IMG/VR virus record: IMGVR_UViG_3300008107_000436
Coordinates: 1 to 52,314 of that record
Source of the DNA: a virus
DNA length: 52,314 nucleotides
Reading direction: 5' to 3' (one strand)
In this document: positions 1-10,137 of the stretch, piece by piece
Numbering within the stretch: the first letter of the stretch is position 1
How the letters are laid out: each line of letters starts with the position of its first letter
Made by a program: the position numbers and the translations under genes
Notes under the pieces: model-generated
Told to the model about the DNA's origin: nothing
Databases searched by the model: none
What the model saw: the letters and a program-made list of their open reading frames with translations, nothing else

Positions 1-230
1 GCTAGTTCCTGAAGAACCTGAAGTGCCAGATGTTCCTGATGAGCCACTTGTTCCTGATGTACCATCTGTACCGCTAGTTCCTGAAGAACCTGAAGTGCCA
101 GATGTTCCTGATGAACCACTTGTTCCTGAAGTACCATCTGTACCGCTAGTTCCTGAAGAACCTGAAGTGCCAGATGTTCCTGATGAACCACTTGTTCCCG
201 AAGAACCTGATGTACCTGAAGTACCAGATG
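1..230 (-). repeat. Second collagen (Gly-X-Y) block, cut by window edge
   Basis: At least 25 G-T-S/G-S-S triplets continue past the left edge. This block includes a near-perfect direct repeat of about 100 bp, in which the segment around positions 1-75 recurs around 76-180. It belongs to the same reading frame as the large block and is separated from it by the globular insert at 241-742. Confidence 0.8.
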
Positions 231-3200
231 GTGCCGCTAATGTGGTTACTAAATATGAATAATATACACCTTCTGAATAGAATATTACTGTTCTGTTTGC
301 ATTATCATTGTTATTGATATAGATATCAACGATAATTCTGTCTGAAGGTACTAAAACCGCTGTTGTTGGTAGACCGTTTACCTTTATCTCAACAGGGTTT
401 GTGTTACTTCCAGCCCAACCTATGTCGGTTGTATCTGATGTAAATAAAGTTGTCTTTGTTCCACCTGTAGTATAACTTGAAACAACATAATATACATCCA
501 AATCATCATTTTCTGCAGCTTTGGTGAAGTAAAGATATGCGTGCCATAAACCGTTTGGAATTACGACTACATTCGGTACTCCTGGGTCTGTGATAAACCC
601 ACTATTAACCAAAACCCCTTGTTGATTTGCGGTTAAATTAACCGTAATTGTGCTACCTGAGAATAAATCTGTAAATTCACCCAACTCTTTATATGGACTT
701 ACATCTTGGGAAACTGATTGGTTGAAGAAGAAGTTTTGTCCTCCTGATATACCGTCTTGTCCTGATGTACCTGAAGAGCCAGATGTTCCAGATGTACCGC
801 TTGAGCCAGATGTTCCACTAGTTCCTGAAGAACCACTCGTACCCGATGTACCTGATGAACCACTTGTTCCTGATGTACCACTTGTACCGTCAGTTCCTGA
901 AGAACCACTTGTACCTGATGTACCACTTGTACCAGAAGTACCTGATGTTCCATTAGTTCCTGATGTACCACTTGTACCAGATGTACCAGATGTGCCAGAA
1001 GTTCCTGATGAACCACTTGTTCCTGAAGTTCCTGAAGTTCCACTTGTCCCTGAAGTTCCACTTGTACCTGAAGTTCCACTTGTTCCTGAAGTTCCACTAG
1101 TACCTGATGTTCCAGAAGAACCACTTGTACCAGAAGTCCCTGATGTTCCGCTTGTTCCTGAAGAACCATCTGTTCCAGAAGTACCACTTGTACCTGAAGA
1201 ACCACTGGTTCCTGATGTTCCACTAGTACCTGATGTACCTGAAGAACCGCTTGTTCCTGAAGTTCCGCTTGTCCCTGATGTACCAGAAGTTCCATTAGTA
1301 CCCGAAGAACCACTAGTACCTGATGTTCCTGAAGAACCGCTAGTTCCTGAAGTACCTGATGTACCACTTGTTCCTGAAGTACCTGATGTACCACTTATTC
1401 CAGAAGTTCCAGAAGTGCCACTTGTTCCTGAAATTCCACTAGTACCTGATGTTCCTGAAGTACCACTAATACCTGAAGTACCGCTAGTACCTGATGTTCC
1501 ACTAGTTCCTGATGAACCACTTATACCTGATGTACCACTTGTTCCTGAAGAACCGCTAGTTCCCGAAGAACCGCTAGTTCCTGATGTTCCTGATGTTCCA
1601 GATGTACCACTTATACCTGAAGTACCGCTAGTTCCTGAAGAACCGCTAGTACCTGATGTTCCACTAGTTCCCGAAGAACCGCTAGTACCTGATGTTCCAC
1701 TAGTTCCTGATGTACCACTTATACCTGAAGTACCGCTAGTCCCTGAAGAACCACTAGTACCTGATGTTCCTGAAGAACCACTAGTACCTGATGTTCCTGA
1801 AGTACCTGATGTACCACTTATACCTGAAGTACCACTTGTTCCTGAAGAACCACTAGTTCCTGATGTTCCAGATGTACCTGATGTACCACTAATTCCTGAA
1901 GTTCCAGATGTACCACTTGAACCTGAAGTTCCTGATGTACCACTAGTACCTGATGTTCCTGAAGTACCGCTAGTACCGTTTGTTCCTGAAGTTCCAGATG
2001 TACCGCTAGTTCCTGAAGAACCACTCGTTCCTGAAGAACCACTCGTTCCTGAAGTTCCACTTGTTCCCGAAGATCCACTTGAACCTGAGGTTCCACTTGT
2101 ACCTGAGGTTCCACTTGTACCTGAAGTCCCGCTTGTTCCCGAAGAACCACTCAAACCACTTGTCCCTGATGATCCATTAGTTCCATTTACACCAGAAAGA
2201 CCTGAAGAACCACTTGTTCCACTTGAACCTGAGGATCCGCTAGTTCCACTCGATCCCGAAGAACCACTAGTCCCCGAGGACCCACTTGACCCACTGGTTC
2301 CTGATGTACCGCTAATTCCACTAGTTCCTGAGGTTCCATTTGTCCCTGATGTGCCAGAAGTTCCATTCGTACCCGAGGATCCACTTGTACCTGATGTTCC
2401 ACTAGTTCCTGATGTACCACTAGTACCTGATGTTCCGTTTGTACCTGATGTACCGCTTGTACCTGATGTGCCAGAAGTTCCATTCGTACCCGAAGAACCA
2501 CTTGTTCCTGAAGTTCCACTAGTTCCCGAAGTCCCGTTAGTTCCTGAGGACCCACTTGTGCCTGAAGTACCACTAGTACCTGATGTACCATTAGTTCCAC
2601 TTGAACCTGATGTACCGCTAGTACCTGAAGTACCGCTAGTTCCTGAAGTTCCACTAGTTCCTGAAGACCCACTTGTACCTGATGTACCGCTTGTCCCTGA
2701 AGTTCCATCAATTCCACTTGAACCTGATGTCCCGCTAGTACCTGAAGTACCGTTAATACCGCTAGTGCCTGATGTACCATCGATTCCACTTGACCCTGAT
2801 GTACCACTAGTACCTGAAGTACCATTTATTCCACTAGTTCCTGAGGTCCCAGATATTCCACTGGTCCCTGAAGTACCATTTATTCCACTTGTTCCTGAGG
2901 TTCCAGATATTCCACTGGTCCCTGAGGTTCCATCTATTCCACTTGTTCCTGAAGTACCACTTATTCCACTAGTTCCTGATGTACCATTAGTTCCACTTGA
3001 ACCTGATGTACCACTAGTACCTGATGTACCATTTATACCACTAGTACCTGAAGTTCCAGATATTCCACTAGTCCCTGAAGTTCCAGATATTCCACTAGTC
3101 CCTGAAGTTCCGTTTATTCCACTTGTTCCTGAAGTACCACTAATACCACTAGTCCCTGAGGTTCCAGATATTCCACTAGTCCCTGAAGTACCGCTTATAC

Positions 3201-4221
3201 CACTTGTTCCTGATGTTCCAGATATTCCGCTCGTTCCTGAAGTACCGCTTATCCCACTTGTTCCTGAGGTTCCAGATATTCCACTAGTCCCTGAGGTTCC
3301 AGATATTCCACTGGTTCCTGAGGTTCCAGATATTCCACTGGTTCCTGAGGTTCCAGATATTCCACTAGTTCCTGAGGTTCCGTTTATACCACTAGTTCCT
3401 GAAGTGCCATTTATACCGCTAGTCCCCGATGTACCATCTATACCACTTGTTCCTGAGGTTCCAGATATTCCACTTGTCCCTGAAGTTCCATCAATTCCAC
3501 TTGAACCTGAAGTACCACTAGTACCTGAAGTACCGTTAATACCGCTAGTTCCCGATGTACCATCTACACCACTTGTTCCTGATGTACCAGATATACCACT
3601 AGTCCCTGAGGTTCCAGATATTCCGCTAGTTCCCGAGGTGCCATTAATTCCACTAGTTCCCGAGGTGCCATTGATTCCACTTGTCCCTGAAGTTCCGTCA
3701 ATTCCACTAGTCCCCGACGTACCATCTATACCACTTGTCCCTGAAGTTCCTGATATTCCACTAGTACCTGAAGTTCCTGATAGTCCACTTGTACCAGAGG
3801 TTCCATTGATTCCACTTGTTCCTGAAGTACCGTTTGTACCTGAAGTTCCATTGATTCCACTTGTACCCGAAGTTCCAGATATTCCACTTGTACCCGAAGT
3901 TCCAGATATTCCGCTAGTTCCCGAAGTTCCAGATATTCCACTTGTTCCTGAAGTGCCATCAATACCACTAGTACCTGAAGTTCCAGATACTCCACTTGTT
4001 CCTGATGTACCATCAATACCGCTAGTCCCTGAAGTTCCGTCGATTCCACTTGTACCTGATGATCCACTTGTAGATCCTGTGATACTTGCTGTGAGGGATG
4101 AAAATGCGATCTGACCTGAAGTACCCGAGGTTCCTCCAGTGAAGTCAGTGACTATGTATAATATATCGTCAGGGGCGGCCGATAATACTATTGGTAAGTC
4201 CGTTATTCTAGTGTTTGACAT
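1..4221 (-). CDS. Collagen-like tail fibre/appendage protein (C-terminus beyond window)
   Basis: Reading from ATG at 4221, the minus frame is open to the window edge (1407 codons) without a stop. It starts MSNTRITDLPIV and has about 50 non-repetitive residues. Then come about 370 uninterrupted Gly-X-Y triplets (743-4066), mostly G-T-S, G-S-S and G-I-S/D/N. A globular beta-rich segment of about 167 residues (241-742) follows, and a second Gly-X-Y block runs off the left edge. Collagen-like Gly-X-Y stretches are known in phage fibres, where they form trimeric triple helices. Almost no proline and few charged residues occur, so stability would rest on Thr/Ser. It closes the second structural module and is probably a long fibre or whisker-like adhesin; its exact attachment is unknown. 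The TATTTAT motif lies just upstream. The collagen reading is clear; the tail-fibre role is inferred from position. Confidence 0.85.
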   Translation of the reverse strand, partial: MSNTRITDLPIVLSAAPDDILYIVTDFTGGTSGTSGQIAFSSLTASITGSTSGSSGTSGIDGTSGTSGIDGTSGTSGVSGTSGTSGIDGTSGTSGISGTSGTSGISGTSGTSGISGTSGTSGINGTSGTNGTSGTSGINGTSGTSGLSGTSGTSGISGTSGTSGIDGTSGTSGIDGTSGTSGINGTSGTSGINGTSGTSGISGTSGTSGISGTSGTSGVDGTSGTSGINGTSGTSGTSGSSGIDGTSGTSGISGTSGTSGIDGTSGTSGINGTSGTSGINGTSGTSGISGTSGTSGISGTSGTSGISGTSGTSGISGTSGTSGISGTSGTSGISGTSGTSGISGTSGTSGISGTSGTSGISGTSGTSGINGTSGTSGISGTSGTSGISGTSGTSGINGTSGTSGTSGSSGTNGTSGTSGISGTSGTSGIDGTSGTSGISGTSGTSGINGTSGTSGISGTSGTSGINGTSGTSGTSGSSGIDGTSGTSGINGTSGTSGTSGSSGIDGTSGTSGTSGTSGSSGTSGTSGTSGTSGTSGTSGSSGTNGTSGTSGTSGTSGSSGTNGTSGTSGTSGTSGSSGTNGTSGTSGTSGTSGTNGTSGTSGTSGTSGTSGTSGSSGTNGTSGTSGTNGTSGTSGISGTSGTSGSSGSSGTSGSSGSSGTSGSSGSSGTSGSSGLSGVNGTNGSSGTSGLSGSSGTSGTSGTSGTSGTSGTSGSSGSSGTSGTSGTSGSSGTSGSSGTSGTSGTSGTNGTSGTSGTSGTSGTSGTSGSSGTSGTSGISGTSGTSGTSGTSGSSGTSGTSGISGTSGTSGTSGTSGSSGTSGTSGSSGTSGTSGISGTSGTSGTSGTSGSSGTSGTSGTSGSSGTSGTSGISGTSGTSGTSGTSGSSGTSGSSGTSGTSGISGSSGTSGTSGTSGTSGISGTSGTSGTSGISGTSGTSGTSGISGTSGTSGTSGTSGTSGTSGSSGTSGTSGSSGTNGTSGTSGTSGTSGTSGSSGTSGTSGTSGTSGSSGTSGTSGTDGSSGTSGTSGTSGTSGSSGTSGTSGTSGTSGTSGTSGTSGTSGTSGTSGTSGSSGTSGTSGTSGTSGTSGTNGTSGTSGTSGTSGTSGSSGTDGTSGTSGTSGSSGTSGTSGSSGTSGTSGSSGTSGTSGSSGTSGQDGISGGQNFFFNQSVSQDVSPYKELGEFTDLFSGSTITVNLTANQQGVLVNSGFITDPGVPNVVVIPNGLWHAYLYFTKAAENDDLDVYYVVSSYTTGGTKTTLFTSDTTDIGWAGSNTNPVEIKVNGLPTTAVLVPSDRIIVDIYINNNDNANRTVIFYSEGVYYSYLVTTLAAPSGTSGTSGSSGTSGSSGTSGTSGSSGTSGTDGTSGTSGSSGTSGTSGSSGTSGTDGTSGTSGSSGTSGTSGSSGTS
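743..4066 (-). repeat. Collagen (Gly-X-Y) repeat block, about 370 triplets
   Basis: The peptide period is 9 bp throughout. Two sub-patterns are visible. From about 743 to 2700 the triplets are mainly G-T-S and G-S-S, and synonymous codons tend to alternate (GGT ACA TCA then GGA ACA AGT), giving an 18-bp super-period. From about 2700 to 4066 an isoleucine triplet (G-I-S, G-I-D or G-I-N) recurs roughly every third triplet, giving a 27-bp period. No interruption of the Gly register was found. Confidence 0.85.
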
Positions 4222-4270: not shown

Positions 4271-4753
4271 TTATGATGGTGGTATTTCCTCTTGTAATAT
4301 TAAAGGATTACCATCTTGTGTAATCAAATCGAAACCATCTTGAGTTATAATTTGAATTTCGAAAACAAGTGGAGTACTACTTGGTGTTGGAGTATTTGTT
4401 GGAGTTGTAGTGTTTGTAGGTGTCAGTGATGGAGTCGCAGTATTGGTAGGTGTAATTGATGGAGTCGGTGTATTAGTAGGTGTAATTGATGGCGTTGGTG
4501 TTATGGTTGGTGTTGGAGTTGGTGTCGGAGTCGTGCATTGTATATTAACAACAACACCATTAAGCATGTCATTTCTGGTGACCGCAGAATAATAAATGTC
4601 ATTGTCAACATAAACATTGAATGGTCCTAAAGCATTGGAATTCGAGGTTAGTCTGACAATATACGTGGTACACCCAGTTACATTAACTTGTTGTTCGATC
4701 TCATTATTACAACCAGGTGCAATATTTGTAACTAAAATAGTGTAAAGACTCAT
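4271..4753 (-). CDS. Small structural protein with Pro/Thr-rich linker
   Basis: 160 aa, ATG start at 4753, preceded at 16 nt by the TATTTAT motif. Residues 1-73 form a compact beta-rich-looking domain with three cysteines (PGCNN, TGCTT, IQC). Residues 74-128 are a Pro/Thr/Ser linker with a roughly 10-residue repeat (TPTNTPTPSI). The C-terminal 32 residues contain two near-copies of ITQDG (FEIQIITQDGFDL, then LITQDGNPLIL), a style often seen at the ends of phage tail proteins. It lies between the 111-aa protein and the collagen-like fibre, so a fibre-linked or decoration role is plausible but not shown. No specific family was recognised. Confidence 0.75.
   Translation of the reverse strand: MSLYTILVTNIAPGCNNEIEQQVNVTGCTTYIVRLTSNSNALGPFNVYVDNDIYYSAVTRNDMLNGVVVNIQCTTPTPTPTPTITPTPSITPTNTPTPSITPTNTATPSLTPTNTTTPTNTPTPSSTPLVFEIQIITQDGFDLITQDGNPLILQEEIPPS
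4370..4534 (-). repeat. Pro/Thr/Ser linker repeat (about 30-bp unit)
   Basis: Tandem imperfect copies of a roughly 30-bp unit encode TPTNTPTPS(I/L). Such linkers are usually extended and flexible. A short related Pro/Thr/Ser linker appears in the giant hub-like protein near residue 2190. Confidence 0.75.
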
Positions 4754-4858: not shown

Positions 4859-5194
4859 TTACAAAGGTTCACAAATTGAGAACAGACAACTTGATTGTTG
4901 AATGTTAATGTTGACCACACAAGACGCTAATTCGATAGTAATTTCGAATGCACAACCAAAAGTACAAGTCAATAATTTTATGACTTCACAATTGTTCGCA
5001 TCAACCAATTTCAACATAATTTCAGGGGCAGTTGAAAATATAGATGGAATTACGCTGTTGTATTGAACAACAGGAGGTACAGGACCTGAAGATATTGTTC
5101 CTAAAAGAGTTTGATTGTTTCCATATACATCAGCAATGAATACACTTATTGGAAAAGTTCCTCCTGAAATTTCGGTTATTCTTATCTGTGTCAT
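4859..5194 (-). CDS. Small Cys-containing structural protein, SprB-repeat-like
   Basis: 111 aa from ATG at 5194 (MTQIRITEISGG). The start overlaps the stop of the upstream gene as ATGA, which decides this start over one three codons earlier. The sequence has a GGTFPISVFI...LKLVDANNCEV pattern reminiscent of one SprB repeat (GG..P(Y/I)..., then ...D.NGC). It is followed by a Cys-rich end with six cysteines in all. Translational coupling and pattern similarity tie it to the SprB-repeat protein upstream. It probably belongs to the same appendage; function unknown. Confidence 0.7.
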   Translation of the reverse strand: MTQIRITEISGGTFPISVFIADVYGNNQTLLGTISSGPVPPVVQYNSVIPSIFSTAPEIMLKLVDANNCEVIKLLTCTFGCAFEITIELASCVVNINIQQSSCLFSICEPL

Positions 5195-7326
5195 GACAAA
5201 CAAATTATATCATATCCAATAATCAAATCGATTACAATTTCTTGTCCTTCCAAAGAAGTATTGTTCTTGCTAGTTTCGATTGTTATTTGATTATTTGTTG
5301 AGTCTATTGTGACTCCACCAATACCAGGAACTCCGAGTAAAAGAGTACGTATTGTATCATACCAATTATTATCCGTTGGTACTTGAACTAATGAAGTTGA
5401 TGTGAAGAAACTTTGTGAAGCGACAATTCCTGATGGATTCACAGAAACTTTTGCTGTAAAGGTTGCACTTATTAATTCACATGCTGTATTACCTGAAGTT
5501 AAATCGAAGTATCCCTCGTTCAACATTTGAAGTAATCCGAATTTAGTTGGAGACTCTATGTTAAAAATCTCAGCTCCCATCACATAAGTTTGATAAGAAG
5601 CGTAATTTGAATTACAACTGATAGTCGTATTTCTTGTTAAAGAACACCCATTTACATCAACCACCGTAAGTGAATAAGTCCCAGCGGTAAGACCACTTAC
5701 TTGTATTTGTTGTGGTTCATTTGGTACATTGTCAGACCAATTGAATGAGAATGGTGGTTCTCCCGAAGTTATGAATGCGGTAATTTTACCACTGTTTCCA
5801 CTTCCACAAGACGTACTTATTAATGAATAGTTTAGAGGTTGGCTTGAAGGAACTAATATATTTGTTGTTTGAACACAACCACTAGCGTCAGTCACTGTAA
5901 TAATATGAGTGCCTGAAGAAAGGTTGTTGAATGTCACCGCACTTAAGTTTGTATCAATAACATTTTGTATTCCATCTACAGAATAATCCAAAGGTAATGT
6001 TGCCCCTGATGTAGTGTAAATTGTTACACTACCATTATTCTGTCCACATTTAGTTCCACCAACTTGAGTTGAAATTGTAAATTTATTCACAGTTAAGAGA
6101 TTGACCTCTTCAACAAATGAACATCCACTATTATCCGAAACTGCAACTGTATAGGTCCCTCCACTAAGGTTTTGGAAAATTTGTGTACTTTGGGAATTTG
6201 TTATGTTGAGTTGATTACCTGTAGGATAAATTAAAGTATATGTGTATGGAGTCGTTCCCCCAACTAAATTGACTGTAATTGAACCATTGTTTGTTGAACA
6301 AGTTGAATTCTGCCCTTGTACTGTAATACTTGACAAACCTCCTGGTGTTTCAAGAGTTATACCCGCTGTCATTTGACATAAACCAGCGTCTGTTACAAGA
6401 AAATTATATTGACCTGCCGATAAACCTGAAATACTGAAAGTTCTTGAGTAAGACACCGCAACATCTCCCGTTGAAGCAGAATAATAGAATGGAGCAGTTC
6501 CCCCAGTCACGGTCATATTTATTACACCATTTGATTGAAGACAAGTTGGTGCAGTCGAAGTAAATAAGCCAAGACCAATTGGACTAACATCAGTTACAGT
6601 TCCTGATTTTGATAAAGTACAACCATATGCGTCAGTCACTGCAACAGAATATACACCAGATGTAAGTCCCGTAATCGTACTTCCTGTCTGACCGTTGTTC
6701 CAAAGGTATGAATATGGTGCCAATCCTGTTTGACCCGTGACAAAAATCTTTCCTATTGGGGTTCCACCACAACTTGAGTTTGGCACAACGTACAAACCAA
6801 AATCCAAAGGTTCGGAATCCTCAACTATAAACGTTTGTGTGAATGCAGTACATCCACCTAAGTCTGTTATTCCCAAATAATAAGTTCCAGCACTAAGTCC
6901 TCCGAAAACTACGGCATCTGTATTGGTTGTTGCAGATGAAAGGTAGTTGTTATTAACATCAAAAAGAGAGAAGTTAGTTGAAGAATACAATGAAGTCGAT
7001 GATCCCGTCACGGACCCATTGTCCAATCCACAAGTTGTATTTTGAACCGCTGAAACTGACCCACATACACCACTTGAAATTGGTATGTTTATAAAAAACT
7101 CACTATTAACAGGTAAAGTACTATCGTTTACTCTTAATTCATAAACTCTACTAGCCAATCCCACCAATGAAGCGGGTTGAGCAACAATAGTTTGTGGCGC
7201 ATATACAGGATTAACAAATTGTACTGTGTATGGCGGGGTTCCTCCACTTACATACAGATTAAATGCTCCCGAATTGTTATTGGAACAATCACCTGTTACT
7301 GCTATGTTATAATCTAAAACCGCCAT
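5191..7326 (-). CDS. Tail protein with SprB-type repeats
   Basis: 711 aa. About seven repeats of roughly 80 residues fill residues 1-580. Each has a Cys near its start followed by N-G/S-(S/K)-(I/V), a GG-x-x-PY motif, then GL(S/T)AGTY...V(T/S)D..GC. This is the pattern of the SprB repeat found in Bacteroidetes gliding adhesins and other surface proteins; Ig-like beta folds are expected. The last ~100 residues are different and share a pattern with the C-terminus of the neighbouring 500-aa protein (VPT(D/N)N.W..., then ...ITI..., ending in two beta-strand-like segments). The start overlaps the upstream stop as TAATG. Most likely a tail-fibre or baseplate-peripheral adhesin; the exact role is inferred. 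Confidence 0.8.
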   Translation of the reverse strand: MAVLDYNIAVTGDCSNNNSGAFNLYVSGGTPPYTVQFVNPVYAPQTIVAQPASLVGLASRVYELRVNDSTLPVNSEFFINIPISSGVCGSVSAVQNTTCGLDNGSVTGSSTSLYSSTNFSLFDVNNNYLSSATTNTDAVVFGGLSAGTYYLGITDLGGCTAFTQTFIVEDSEPLDFGLYVVPNSSCGGTPIGKIFVTGQTGLAPYSYLWNNGQTGSTITGLTSGVYSVAVTDAYGCTLSKSGTVTDVSPIGLGLFTSTAPTCLQSNGVINMTVTGGTAPFYYSASTGDVAVSYSRTFSISGLSAGQYNFLVTDAGLCQMTAGITLETPGGLSSITVQGQNSTCSTNNGSITVNLVGGTTPYTYTLIYPTGNQLNITNSQSTQIFQNLSGGTYTVAVSDNSGCSFVEEVNLLTVNKFTISTQVGGTKCGQNNGSVTIYTTSGATLPLDYSVDGIQNVIDTNLSAVTFNNLSSGTHIITVTDASGCVQTTNILVPSSQPLNYSLISTSCGSGNSGKITAFITSGEPPFSFNWSDNVPNEPQQIQVSGLTAGTYSLTVVDVNGCSLTRNTTISCNSNYASYQTYVMGAEIFNIESPTKFGLLQMLNEGYFDLTSGNTACELISATFTAKVSVNPSGIVASQSFFTSTSLVQVPTDNNWYDTIRTLLLGVPGIGGVTIDSTNNQITIETSKNNTSLEGQEIVIDLIIGYDIICLS
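5587..7326 (-). repeat. Seven SprB-like protein repeats
   Basis: Recognisable repeat ends include GLSAGTYYLGITDLGGC, GLTSGVYSVAVTDAYGC, NLSGGTYTVAVSDNSGC, NLSSGTHIITVTDASGC and GLTAGTYSLTVVDVNGC. Repeats are diverged at DNA level, so the array looks old rather than recently expanded. Confidence 0.75.
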
Positions 7327-8828
7327 TAGCTTTCAAGACAATTAATACTTATATTTATTCCCGAATTCAAAGAGAGAACTTCGTTGAAATTTCTTTCCGT
7401 ACAAGTTAGACTTGTAATAGTCAATTCGTTTCCATTTAGGAAGAATGTAAAACCATAATCATATAGTTGTGGAAGATATTCAATAAGAGCATTTCTCCAC
7501 ATTGTATTTGTTGGTACATCAGTTAGTCCATACCCCTCATAGAATTGTTCTTGGATTATAATATCCCCACCAATTCTTAAATCAACGTACCAACTACTTT
7601 GTACCGAATTTGTAATACAATCATTTAATGTCAAACCACTTTGTGCCAACATTTTATTGACTCTATTTGACAATATACTACTGAAGTTACTTACATCTAC
7701 ATCCCCATTCAACCACGGAAATATATTAAAGTCAGTGTACTCAGTTGTACAGTTATAATCAAAAATATTTGATATTATAAAACAAGGTTCAACAGGTACA
7801 GGAAGGAATTGACAACCTCTTTGTCTTCTATATACAAATTTCTGTCTTTGGAAAATTGAGTTTTCCATTCTGACACCTGTATTCCAAATTGTTGTTGCTG
7901 GAAACATCTGTTCAACCAATGTCATCCAATATGGATTGATTCCATTAACGTAATCAATCAATTTCTGATAGGTATATTTGTTATTTGGTATTCCTACGGT
8001 ACTTTCAGACTCAATATATTTCCAAAATATTGATTGTAGAGTTGGATAGCCTCCCGTTTTACCATCTGTAATATATTGACGGTTTCTTACATTAATCATG
8101 TTCTCCCAAAAAGTCTGAGAAAACTCGAAGAATGTTTTTTTCTTTGGCTGAGGATTAACAAAGGTACTATCAACCCCACCTGGCACAGGATAGCCGACTG
8201 TCAAACCTGACTCAGGAATTGGATAATCATATCTTCTTGATTGGTCCCACACATCATAAACTAAACCTTGAGATGGGTTCAAAAACAAATCAACATTCTT
8301 TACATTGAGAACTAACTTCTCATTATCCACAAAGTAGTACGCATTGTAGTCAGCGTTTGTCGATACTCTGATTTTTGAATCATCTTCTAGCCAAGATTTA
8401 TTATTGTCAACAACTTTTTTCAATTTGAATCCCTCATTCATATAAGGAAAATCTCTAAATCTATTCAAATATAATTGCCCGTAAGTGAATGGTTGTAATT
8501 GAGTTTGAATATCAAAGTTTTGACCTGTATATATTTGCCCCGTGACAGTTACTTGGTCAGGACTTCTATGAGTTGGGGTAGATTCATACCACCCTGCTCC
8601 CAATTGAAAGAAATAGGTTTCAGTGTTTACGGGAGCTTTTGGGAAACCTTCAGTATCAACGGGGTAATCAACGAGTCTCGTATTAACATCTTGATAAGTT
8701 GCAGTCGAAGTGAACGCACTGAATGTTTGTCCTTTAATTTTATATGTTAAACCTGGTATAAAACTCGGAGTATTCTGAACATAAGTACCTCCCGAAATGG
8801 ATGCCCATTGAGTGGTAAACTGTTCCAT
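7326..8828 (-). CDS. Unknown baseplate/fibre-module structural protein
   Basis: 500 aa, ATG at 8828, 13 nt after the upstream stop; its stop overlaps the next start as TAATG. No family recognised. It is rich in aromatic residues and Asn, lacks a signal peptide or membrane segment, and looks like a beta-rich structural protein. The last ~95 residues (from about 405) have the pattern VPTNTMW..., then ...GFTFFLNGNELTITS, ending in an SGINISINC segment. This matches the layout of the C-terminus of the next gene, suggesting a shared docking or capping domain. The position among baseplate-peripheral genes suggests a wedge-associated or fibre-connector role. Confidence 0.7.
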   Translation of the reverse strand: MEQFTTQWASISGGTYVQNTPSFIPGLTYKIKGQTFSAFTSTATYQDVNTRLVDYPVDTEGFPKAPVNTETYFFQLGAGWYESTPTHRSPDQVTVTGQIYTGQNFDIQTQLQPFTYGQLYLNRFRDFPYMNEGFKLKKVVDNNKSWLEDDSKIRVSTNADYNAYYFVDNEKLVLNVKNVDLFLNPSQGLVYDVWDQSRRYDYPIPESGLTVGYPVPGGVDSTFVNPQPKKKTFFEFSQTFWENMINVRNRQYITDGKTGGYPTLQSIFWKYIESESTVGIPNNKYTYQKLIDYVNGINPYWMTLVEQMFPATTIWNTGVRMENSIFQRQKFVYRRQRGCQFLPVPVEPCFIISNIFDYNCTTEYTDFNIFPWLNGDVDVSNFSSILSNRVNKMLAQSGLTLNDCITNSVQSSWYVDLRIGGDIIIQEQFYEGYGLTDVPTNTMWRNALIEYLPQLYDYGFTFFLNGNELTITSLTCTERNFNEVLSLNSGINISINCLES

Positions 8829-8841
8829 ATTAATTTTTTGG

Positions 8842-10137
8842 TCAGCTAAAAGTTGGAGTCGAGGTATTTCCGAAAACCGAACTCAAGAAATCTTCATTCG
8901 TTATTGGAGAGAAGTTGGAAGTCCATCCCAATGTTTGTGCTAAATTCACTAACAACTGAGACGGAATATCGTTCGATGGATTATAATTGACTGAGTTCAT
9001 AAATGCTAATGCATCTATAAATTGTTTGATTTGGTCAAAACTTCTTCCGTAAATTTGGAATATCTTTTCTACCTTTCGACCCAAAGTATCGAATTCTTTC
9101 AGGGAATCTGAAACTAAAAATCTAGAAACCAAGTTGGTTTTAAAAGTATCTAAATTAACTGCAATTGATTCCAACTGAGTCAAGTAGTCCTCGAAAAGAA
9201 AAGATTTAATATCCAAGTTCCAAGGCCCCTCTTTCGGCCACGTCACTTGTTGATAATTTGTGAAAAACTGACCTGCTTCATTTTGTTGGGGCACTTGGAA
9301 TACTGCAGTATATTCAGGCCTAACAAGTCTATTCAATAAAAACTTTTGAACTTCGTCAAAATTTTCTGCGAATATCCTATCTACAACAATATCATTAGGT
9401 CTTACTTGAAAATTTTCAAATATTGTGGTTGCGGTTTTCCCAAATGGTGCTCCTGAAACTATAAATTCGATATAACCTGATGAAAGTGTTGGAGATGGAA
9501 TAAATGATACAACATTATATATGTTGTCATTTATTGAAATACAATAATCCAAGTAAGTATTATACAAATTTCTATATGGTGAAACCAATATCTCTCTCAC
9601 AGAGAGATTAGTTGTTGCACTGAGTGAATAATCAATATCAAAGGGATTGTTAATTCTACTTGTATCGATTCTGAACGTAGTTTCGTCTGCAGTATTATTG
9701 TAAGATATATTATAGGCTGTTGCACCAGTCACGAAGTCTTCATTGTTGAATTGAATATTCAAAGATGCTGGAAATCTATGAATAATTTCTGTGACTGATA
9801 CTTGGAATCTCTTGCTCAAAGACCCATACATTGAGAAATTTAGTACTTGCGAAACATCATAGTTTGGATAAACCCTAAATTGTGTTGCAATAATCCTACG
9901 ACTCTCTTCTAAATTACTAATATCTAATCCATCCAAACCGATTGGGTCAGAGAAGGCTCCTATGTTGAAATCTCTGGTAGTTCTTTCTGTTACAGATGTT
10001 GTGAACTCAAAGTTTCCTTGCGTAAGTCCTCCACCTTCCACTGTTTGTAATCCAACAATGTTGTCAGAGAAAGTTGCCGCCCCACTACCTGGCCTTGGCG
10101 GATAGAAAAATTTAGTAGTCCTTTGAGTAGTAGCCAT
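8842..10137 (-). CDS. Baseplate-associated tail protein, P2 gpI-like C-terminus (tentative)
   Basis: 431 aa, ATG at 10137 overlapping the upstream stop as TAATG. The first ~290 residues are beta-rich without a recognised family. The last ~120 residues are helical: KEFDTLGRKVEKIFQIYGRS, then a F.DA..F.N..NY stretch, and PSQLLVNLAQTLGW. That pattern resembles the helical part of P2 gpI-type baseplate proteins (LP..LL..LA..LGW). The similarity is by eye and weak. Placement downstream of gp25 and gp6 fits a baseplate component linking wedges to fibres. Confidence 0.65.
   Translation of the reverse strand: MATTQRTTKFFYPPRPGSGAATFSDNIVGLQTVEGGGLTQGNFEFTTSVTERTTRDFNIGAFSDPIGLDGLDISNLEESRRIIATQFRVYPNYDVSQVLNFSMYGSLSKRFQVSVTEIIHRFPASLNIQFNNEDFVTGATAYNISYNNTADETTFRIDTSRINNPFDIDYSLSATTNLSVREILVSPYRNLYNTYLDYCISINDNIYNVVSFIPSPTLSSGYIEFIVSGAPFGKTATTIFENFQVRPNDIVVDRIFAENFDEVQKFLLNRLVRPEYTAVFQVPQQNEAGQFFTNYQQVTWPKEGPWNLDIKSFLFEDYLTQLESIAVNLDTFKTNLVSRFLVSDSLKEFDTLGRKVEKIFQIYGRSFDQIKQFIDALAFMNSVNYNPSNDIPSQLLVNLAQTLGWTSNFSPITNEDFLSSVFGNTSTPTFS

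Follow-up and report, generated by a model that had tools for sequence, protein, structure and literature searches.

A fixed array of seven SprB-type modules in a protein encoded among the tail genes of a T4-like phage

The window analysed here, a 52,314-base stretch of virus DNA (IMG/VR record IMGVR_UViG_3300008107_000436), encodes a 711-residue protein, p711, in which seven modules of the SprB family are followed by a C-terminal domain of another kind, and comparison of related sequences indicates that this architecture is fixed and highly constrained. The virus is confirmed to be a T4-like phage by genes for the tail sheath, the tail tube, gp6- and gp25-like baseplate proteins, ribonucleotide reductase, DnaB helicase and UvsX, which are accompanied by a gene for a single-strand binding protein. 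A sequence-only reading had called p711 a phage tail protein; the word phage stands on these structural and replication genes, and the tail position is deduced from gene order and synteny. Carriers of the p711 family are large T4-like freshwater phages; a 326-kb relative carries twelve tRNA genes (L216:6623-13150). The p711 gene, its parts and its neighbors are listed in Table 1.

Table 1. Positions in the window of p711, its parts and the neighboring genes
Feature	Position	Strand	Basis or remark
Collagen-like TSG-repeat fibre protein, open at window edge	1..4221	-	Translation; most loci have a gene of this type downstream
160-aa protein with Thr/Pro linker (TPTPTNTPT)	4271..4753	-	Genes of this kind come after p711 in most loci
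Small Cys-rich protein, 114-aa ORF overlapping p711 end	4859..5203	-	Not matched by SprB profile
p711, SprB-repeat protein, 711 aa	5191..7326	-	Pfam SprB E=3.2e-22; seven modules by bacterial-only profile; AlphaFold mean pLDDT 77
Alpha/beta domain at C-terminus (residues 585-711), putative virion anchor	5194..5574	-	Model pLDDT 82, pTM 0.78; weak similarity to upstream tail protein C-terminus
SprB module 7, residues 500-571, most conserved	5614..5829	-	Profile domain; identity over 34 representatives
SprB module 6, residues 418-492	5851..6075	-	Profile domain
SprB module 5, residues 335-410	6097..6324	-	Profile domain
SprB module 4, residues 253-326	6349..6570	-	Profile domain
SprB module 3, residues 176-246, nearest to bacterial modules (51% identity)	6589..6801	-	Profile domain; identity comparison
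SprB module 2, residues 93-169	6820..7050	-	Profile domain
SprB module 1, residues 5-82, least conserved	7081..7314	-	Profile domain; 55% mean pairwise identity among 34 representatives
Upstream tail protein, 3' part	7326..8828	-	Shares 1 nt with p711 start codon; directly upstream in 80/80 loci
Upstream tail protein, 5' part, cut off by small deletion	8842..10137	-	Comparison with other loci

SprB modules and the C-terminal domain

The Pfam SprB family (PF13573) matches p711 in six stretches at 78.3 bits (cut-off 28; E=3.2e-22), and in the same search no Ig family rises above its own cut-off. To avoid circularity, a second profile was built from 250 bacterial modules and no phage ones. This bacterial-only profile finds seven domains in p711 (251.8 bits in total, E=1e-77), scoring, in order along the protein, 25.0, 13.3, 65.2, 51.7, 41.9, 31.9 and 54.8 bits, and the best of 1000 shuffles of p711 reaches 7.0 bits. 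p711 has several tandem copies over the cut-off and matches SprB better than it does unrelated Ig families, and so belongs to the SprB family. The sequence-only reading had claimed SprB-type repeats, seven in number, and had proposed a family profile search and a comparison with unrelated Ig-like families; the searches above bear out both the family and the count. The repeat pattern that it wrote down fits modules 1 and 2 less well, and the span that it gave, 5587-7326, corresponds to residues 1-580 and so misses the roughly 130 non-repeat residues at the C-terminal end of the open reading frame.

An AlphaFold model of p711 (mean pLDDT 77) takes the form of a string of beta beads, followed from around residue 585 by a mixed alpha/beta domain. 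The best match of the bead string among solved structures is the grappling-hook adhesin GhpA of Aureispira (PDB 9flp and others; E=3e-18), with 15% identity and TM-scores that are low (about 0.2) because the relative positions of the beads are not predicted. A PDB sequence search with p711 returned nothing meaningful, and GhpA was not matched by sequence; the similarity is one of fold type and not a specific one. SprB itself is a substrate of the type IX secretion system, T9SS (PMC9127263). No T9SS sorting domain was found in p711 above cut-off: TIGR04131 and CHU_C are absent, and TIGR04183 scores 15.6 bits against a cut-off of 23, inside a module and away from the C-terminus. This argues that p711, though built from SprB modules, is not an SprB-type gliding adhesin.

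Modelled alone, the C-terminal domain gives a pLDDT of 82 and a pTM of 0.78, and a search of the PDB yielded no fold match for it below E=0.001. Matches to the family profile are numerous in nine genomes with bacterial SprB loci, and none of the matches listed extends past residue 570, so the domain appears to be phage-specific. Its sequence weakly resembles the C-terminus of the tail protein encoded directly upstream: with the larger sequence set, hhalign aligned the two over 51 columns with E=4e-4 and a probability of 35%, compared with 0.016 for the best of 30 column shuffles; with a first, smaller set the E-value was 0.075, which is not significant.

Conservation and origin of the array

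The first relatives of p711 found in IMG/VR are 46-100% identical to it, and the complete copies among them have 708-712 residues and seven modules. A second scan, for which only the C-terminal domain served as the query, found 338 relatives, and all 80 of the viral loci kept from it encode exactly seven modules. On these comparisons, the array does not behave as one that expands and contracts. Over 34 representatives, 17 cysteines are invariant or altered in one sequence only. In the most distant representative (L038), C507, C561 and C571 of module 7 have all been lost together, a single event that would fit pairing among them. Mean identity over the same representatives is lowest in module 1 (55%) and reaches 74% in module 7, and the C-terminal domain, with 69%, is among the most conserved parts; the gradient is a shallow one, and weaker constraint could be all that sets module 1 apart.

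A phylogeny of the repeats had been proposed as a check on their acquisition from the host. A tree of 130 modules groups each of the positions R1-R7 into a single clade over all five sampled phages, with support of 90-100, which indicates that the seven-module array was already complete in the common ancestor of those phages; long inheritance of the seven modules together, within this group of phages, appears to be the best explanation. The phage modules lie among bacterial ones, and in most cases the nearest module that is not an orthologue comes from bacteria (with up to 51% identity for the modules of the window), although such counts favor bacteria partly because bacterial modules outnumber the others in the set. 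The free tree contains five phage/bacteria changes, and the AU test does not reject a tree with all phage modules in one clade (p=0.31). The check thus places the modules but fixes neither the number of transfers nor their direction. Since the SprB repeat is so common in Bacteroidota, the natural reading would be that the modules were recruited from the SprB repertoire of that phylum. By their titles, the 80 bacterial loci retained all come from Bacteroidota; the sample was drawn with a made-up SprB consensus as bait, which biases the choice of loci. A scan of a genome collection with the phage alignment confirmed no bacterial relative from its two patterns.

Gene neighborhood and host

Directly upstream of p711, all 80 loci have the same tail-protein gene. 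In the other loci that were read it forms one uninterrupted frame (about 996 residues in L006), and in the window it lacks about 180 bases and contains a frame break at 8820-8870 on the minus strand, which is either an assembly fault or a variant. The whole upstream protein has no Pfam family and shows a weak blastp match to proteins of Microcystis phage Mel-JY01 and Flavobacterium phage immuto; a 500-residue part of it had no match in named phages. Downstream, genes for proteins with Thr/Pro linkers and for collagen-like TSG repeats are found in most loci, and the adhesin-like genes there vary from locus to locus. A long, proline-rich open reading frame on the plus strand (650-4114) was rejected as a gene, because it runs antisense to the collagen-like TSG repeats. 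Because the gene order is fixed within a tail cluster, we infer that p711 is a tail-associated virion protein.

In related phages, a second protein carries one or two SprB-like modules, in some cases together with Thr/Pro linkers (L121:1711-4200, L122:2389-4878 and L123:5305-8610). A 1444-residue phage protein with DUF285 repeats (L123:10267-14601; E=2e-141) adjoins a p711 orthologue.

The repeats had also been read as support for the host assignment, and this part of the sequence-only reading is weakened. A Pfam SprB hit alone is not host-diagnostic, because the cut-off is also exceeded in T4-like phages of enterobacteria: Ig-type whisker/decoration proteins from Klebsiella and Enterobacter phages reach 35.9 and 34.0 bits (L128:1168-2229 and L129:1-1959). 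Their Ig_3 scores are above their SprB scores, and with the bacterial-only profile they obtain 54.5 and 43.3 bits, versus the 251.8 of p711. An SprB match in a viral contig should accordingly be treated with caution, as it assigns no host by itself. The nearest named relatives by baseplate are immuto and Mel-JY01, which are equally similar; neither has a p711-like protein among the tail genes compared. Shine-Dalgarno enrichment is little or none in the window and in the 326-kb relative, as it is in the comparison set, which consisted of Bacteroidota loci and immuto. The missing motifs suggest, as separate and modest backing, a Bacteroidota host.

Proposed role and comparison with known systems

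We consider it fairly probable that p711 is a structural protein forming a fixed-length fibre or whisker on the tail or baseplate, for reversible contact with the host. Location in the virion, orientation and surface contact are all points that we infer. The seven Ig-like modules would form the bead string, and the C-terminal domain would fix the protein to the virion, probably beside the upstream tail protein that it weakly resembles at its C-terminus. Module 1, the least conserved, would point outward and make reversible contact with the host surface, before other fibres carry out committed receptor binding. A fixed-length tail fibre is favored because the layout resembles that of T4 Hoc, an Ig-like string with a C-terminal anchor, and because the evolutionary pattern resembles that of the BACON arrays of crAss-like phages.

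The likeness to Hoc, in which a string of Ig domains ends in a capsid-binding C-terminal domain (PMC10385173), also speaks for a decoration on the head or neck, adhering weakly and generally to polysaccharide-rich surfaces with no specific host recognition. A PHROG Hoc-like family matches modules 4-5 with E=4e-8, and SprB-like Ig modules are present in the whisker/decoration proteins of Straboviridae. However, the PHROG match is confined to the modules and does not cover the anchor, and every one of the 80 loci has the p711 gene fixed among the tail genes, with a C-terminal domain that weakly recalls that of the upstream tail gene. We regard a head or neck decoration as rather unlikely. Hoc differs from p711 in sitting on the head, and the Straboviridae modules differ in scoring best with Ig_3/I-set.

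In comparison, the SprB adhesins of Bacteroidota share with p711 an Ig-like module of about 75 residues with two cysteines, the best bacterial module being 51% identical to module 3, but they often have thousands of residues and many repeats. p711 has 711 residues, seven modules in each complete copy read, a C-terminal domain so far seen only in phages and no T9SS sorting domain above cut-off. GhpA, a Bacteroidota adhesin with a comparable bead-string fold, differs likewise as a bacterial appendage of thousands of residues. The sequence-only reading had suggested binding of the same polysaccharides, interaction with the adhesin track or mimicry of a host surface protein, and none of the results speaks specifically for any of the three. 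Homology of the modules would allow p711 to engage the mobile adhesins of SprB type, or the ligands of these, and the phage would then travel along the cell or be disguised as a host surface protein. A paper on Flavobacterium columnare describes the receptors of its phages as unknown but likely to belong to the gliding machinery, in line with a proposal for F. johnsoniae (PMC7345892), which keeps such a link alive while giving it no specific support. SprB-repeat proteins are, however, widespread in Bacteroidota and not specific to gliding, and both binding between SprB modules and gliding of the host remain hypothetical. We hold this link to be very improbable, and give equally little credence to its stronger form, in which host-derived modules engage the moving adhesin layer of the host and tail contact is made with, or carried by, the gliding machinery.

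A full-length relative of p711 is already labelled in a database: A0A6J5LD72, of 714 residues, is a full-length structural match with 34% identity, evidently of the same family, and UniProt (via BFVD) names it 'SprB repeat [uncultured Caudovirales phage]', as a database label only. In the literature searched, which was not exhaustive, we found no description of SprB repeats in phages. A 642-kb uncultured phage record (LR756502.1; L127:13246-18258) encodes a 1670-residue protein in which 13 SprB repeats are combined with a PKD domain and a T9SS sorting domain of type B; this protein may be a phage-encoded adhesin exported by the host, or the record may be misassembled or misclassified.

The closest parallel to the tail-associated fibre proposed here is offered by the BACON repeats of crAss-like phages, which also form a tail-associated Ig-like array of a domain shared with Bacteroidetes surface proteins, with a stable number of copies and position-specific clades (PMC6949934); in both, the array adjoins tail genes and the domain order is conserved. 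A BACON structure from bacteria has been interpreted as a linker (PMC6949934), in keeping with an alternative in which the p711 modules set only distance and stiffness in the tail and binding is left to the Thr/Pro-linker and collagen-like fibre proteins encoded downstream. The invariant module number, the nearly invariant cysteines and the variable adhesin-like genes downstream agree with such a passive part; host-range determinants do not typically have a fixed length and as modest a variability as module 1 shows, which leaves room for a structural or spacer role. Yet divergence is greatest in module 1, and the modules retain SprB-type features instead of forming a generic Ig string, and we think a purely passive role unlikely. 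BACON belongs to another domain family and forms arrays of 5, 6 or 8 in crAss-like phages (PMC6949934), whereas p711 always has seven modules and occurs in large T4-like phages. After BACON, SprB is a second Bacteroidota surface module in tail-associated phage arrays, here in large T4-like freshwater phages, as an object of fixed length with a phage-specific anchor domain of no assigned fold, and it opens the simple question of whether phages use host-type adhesin modules for surface contact.
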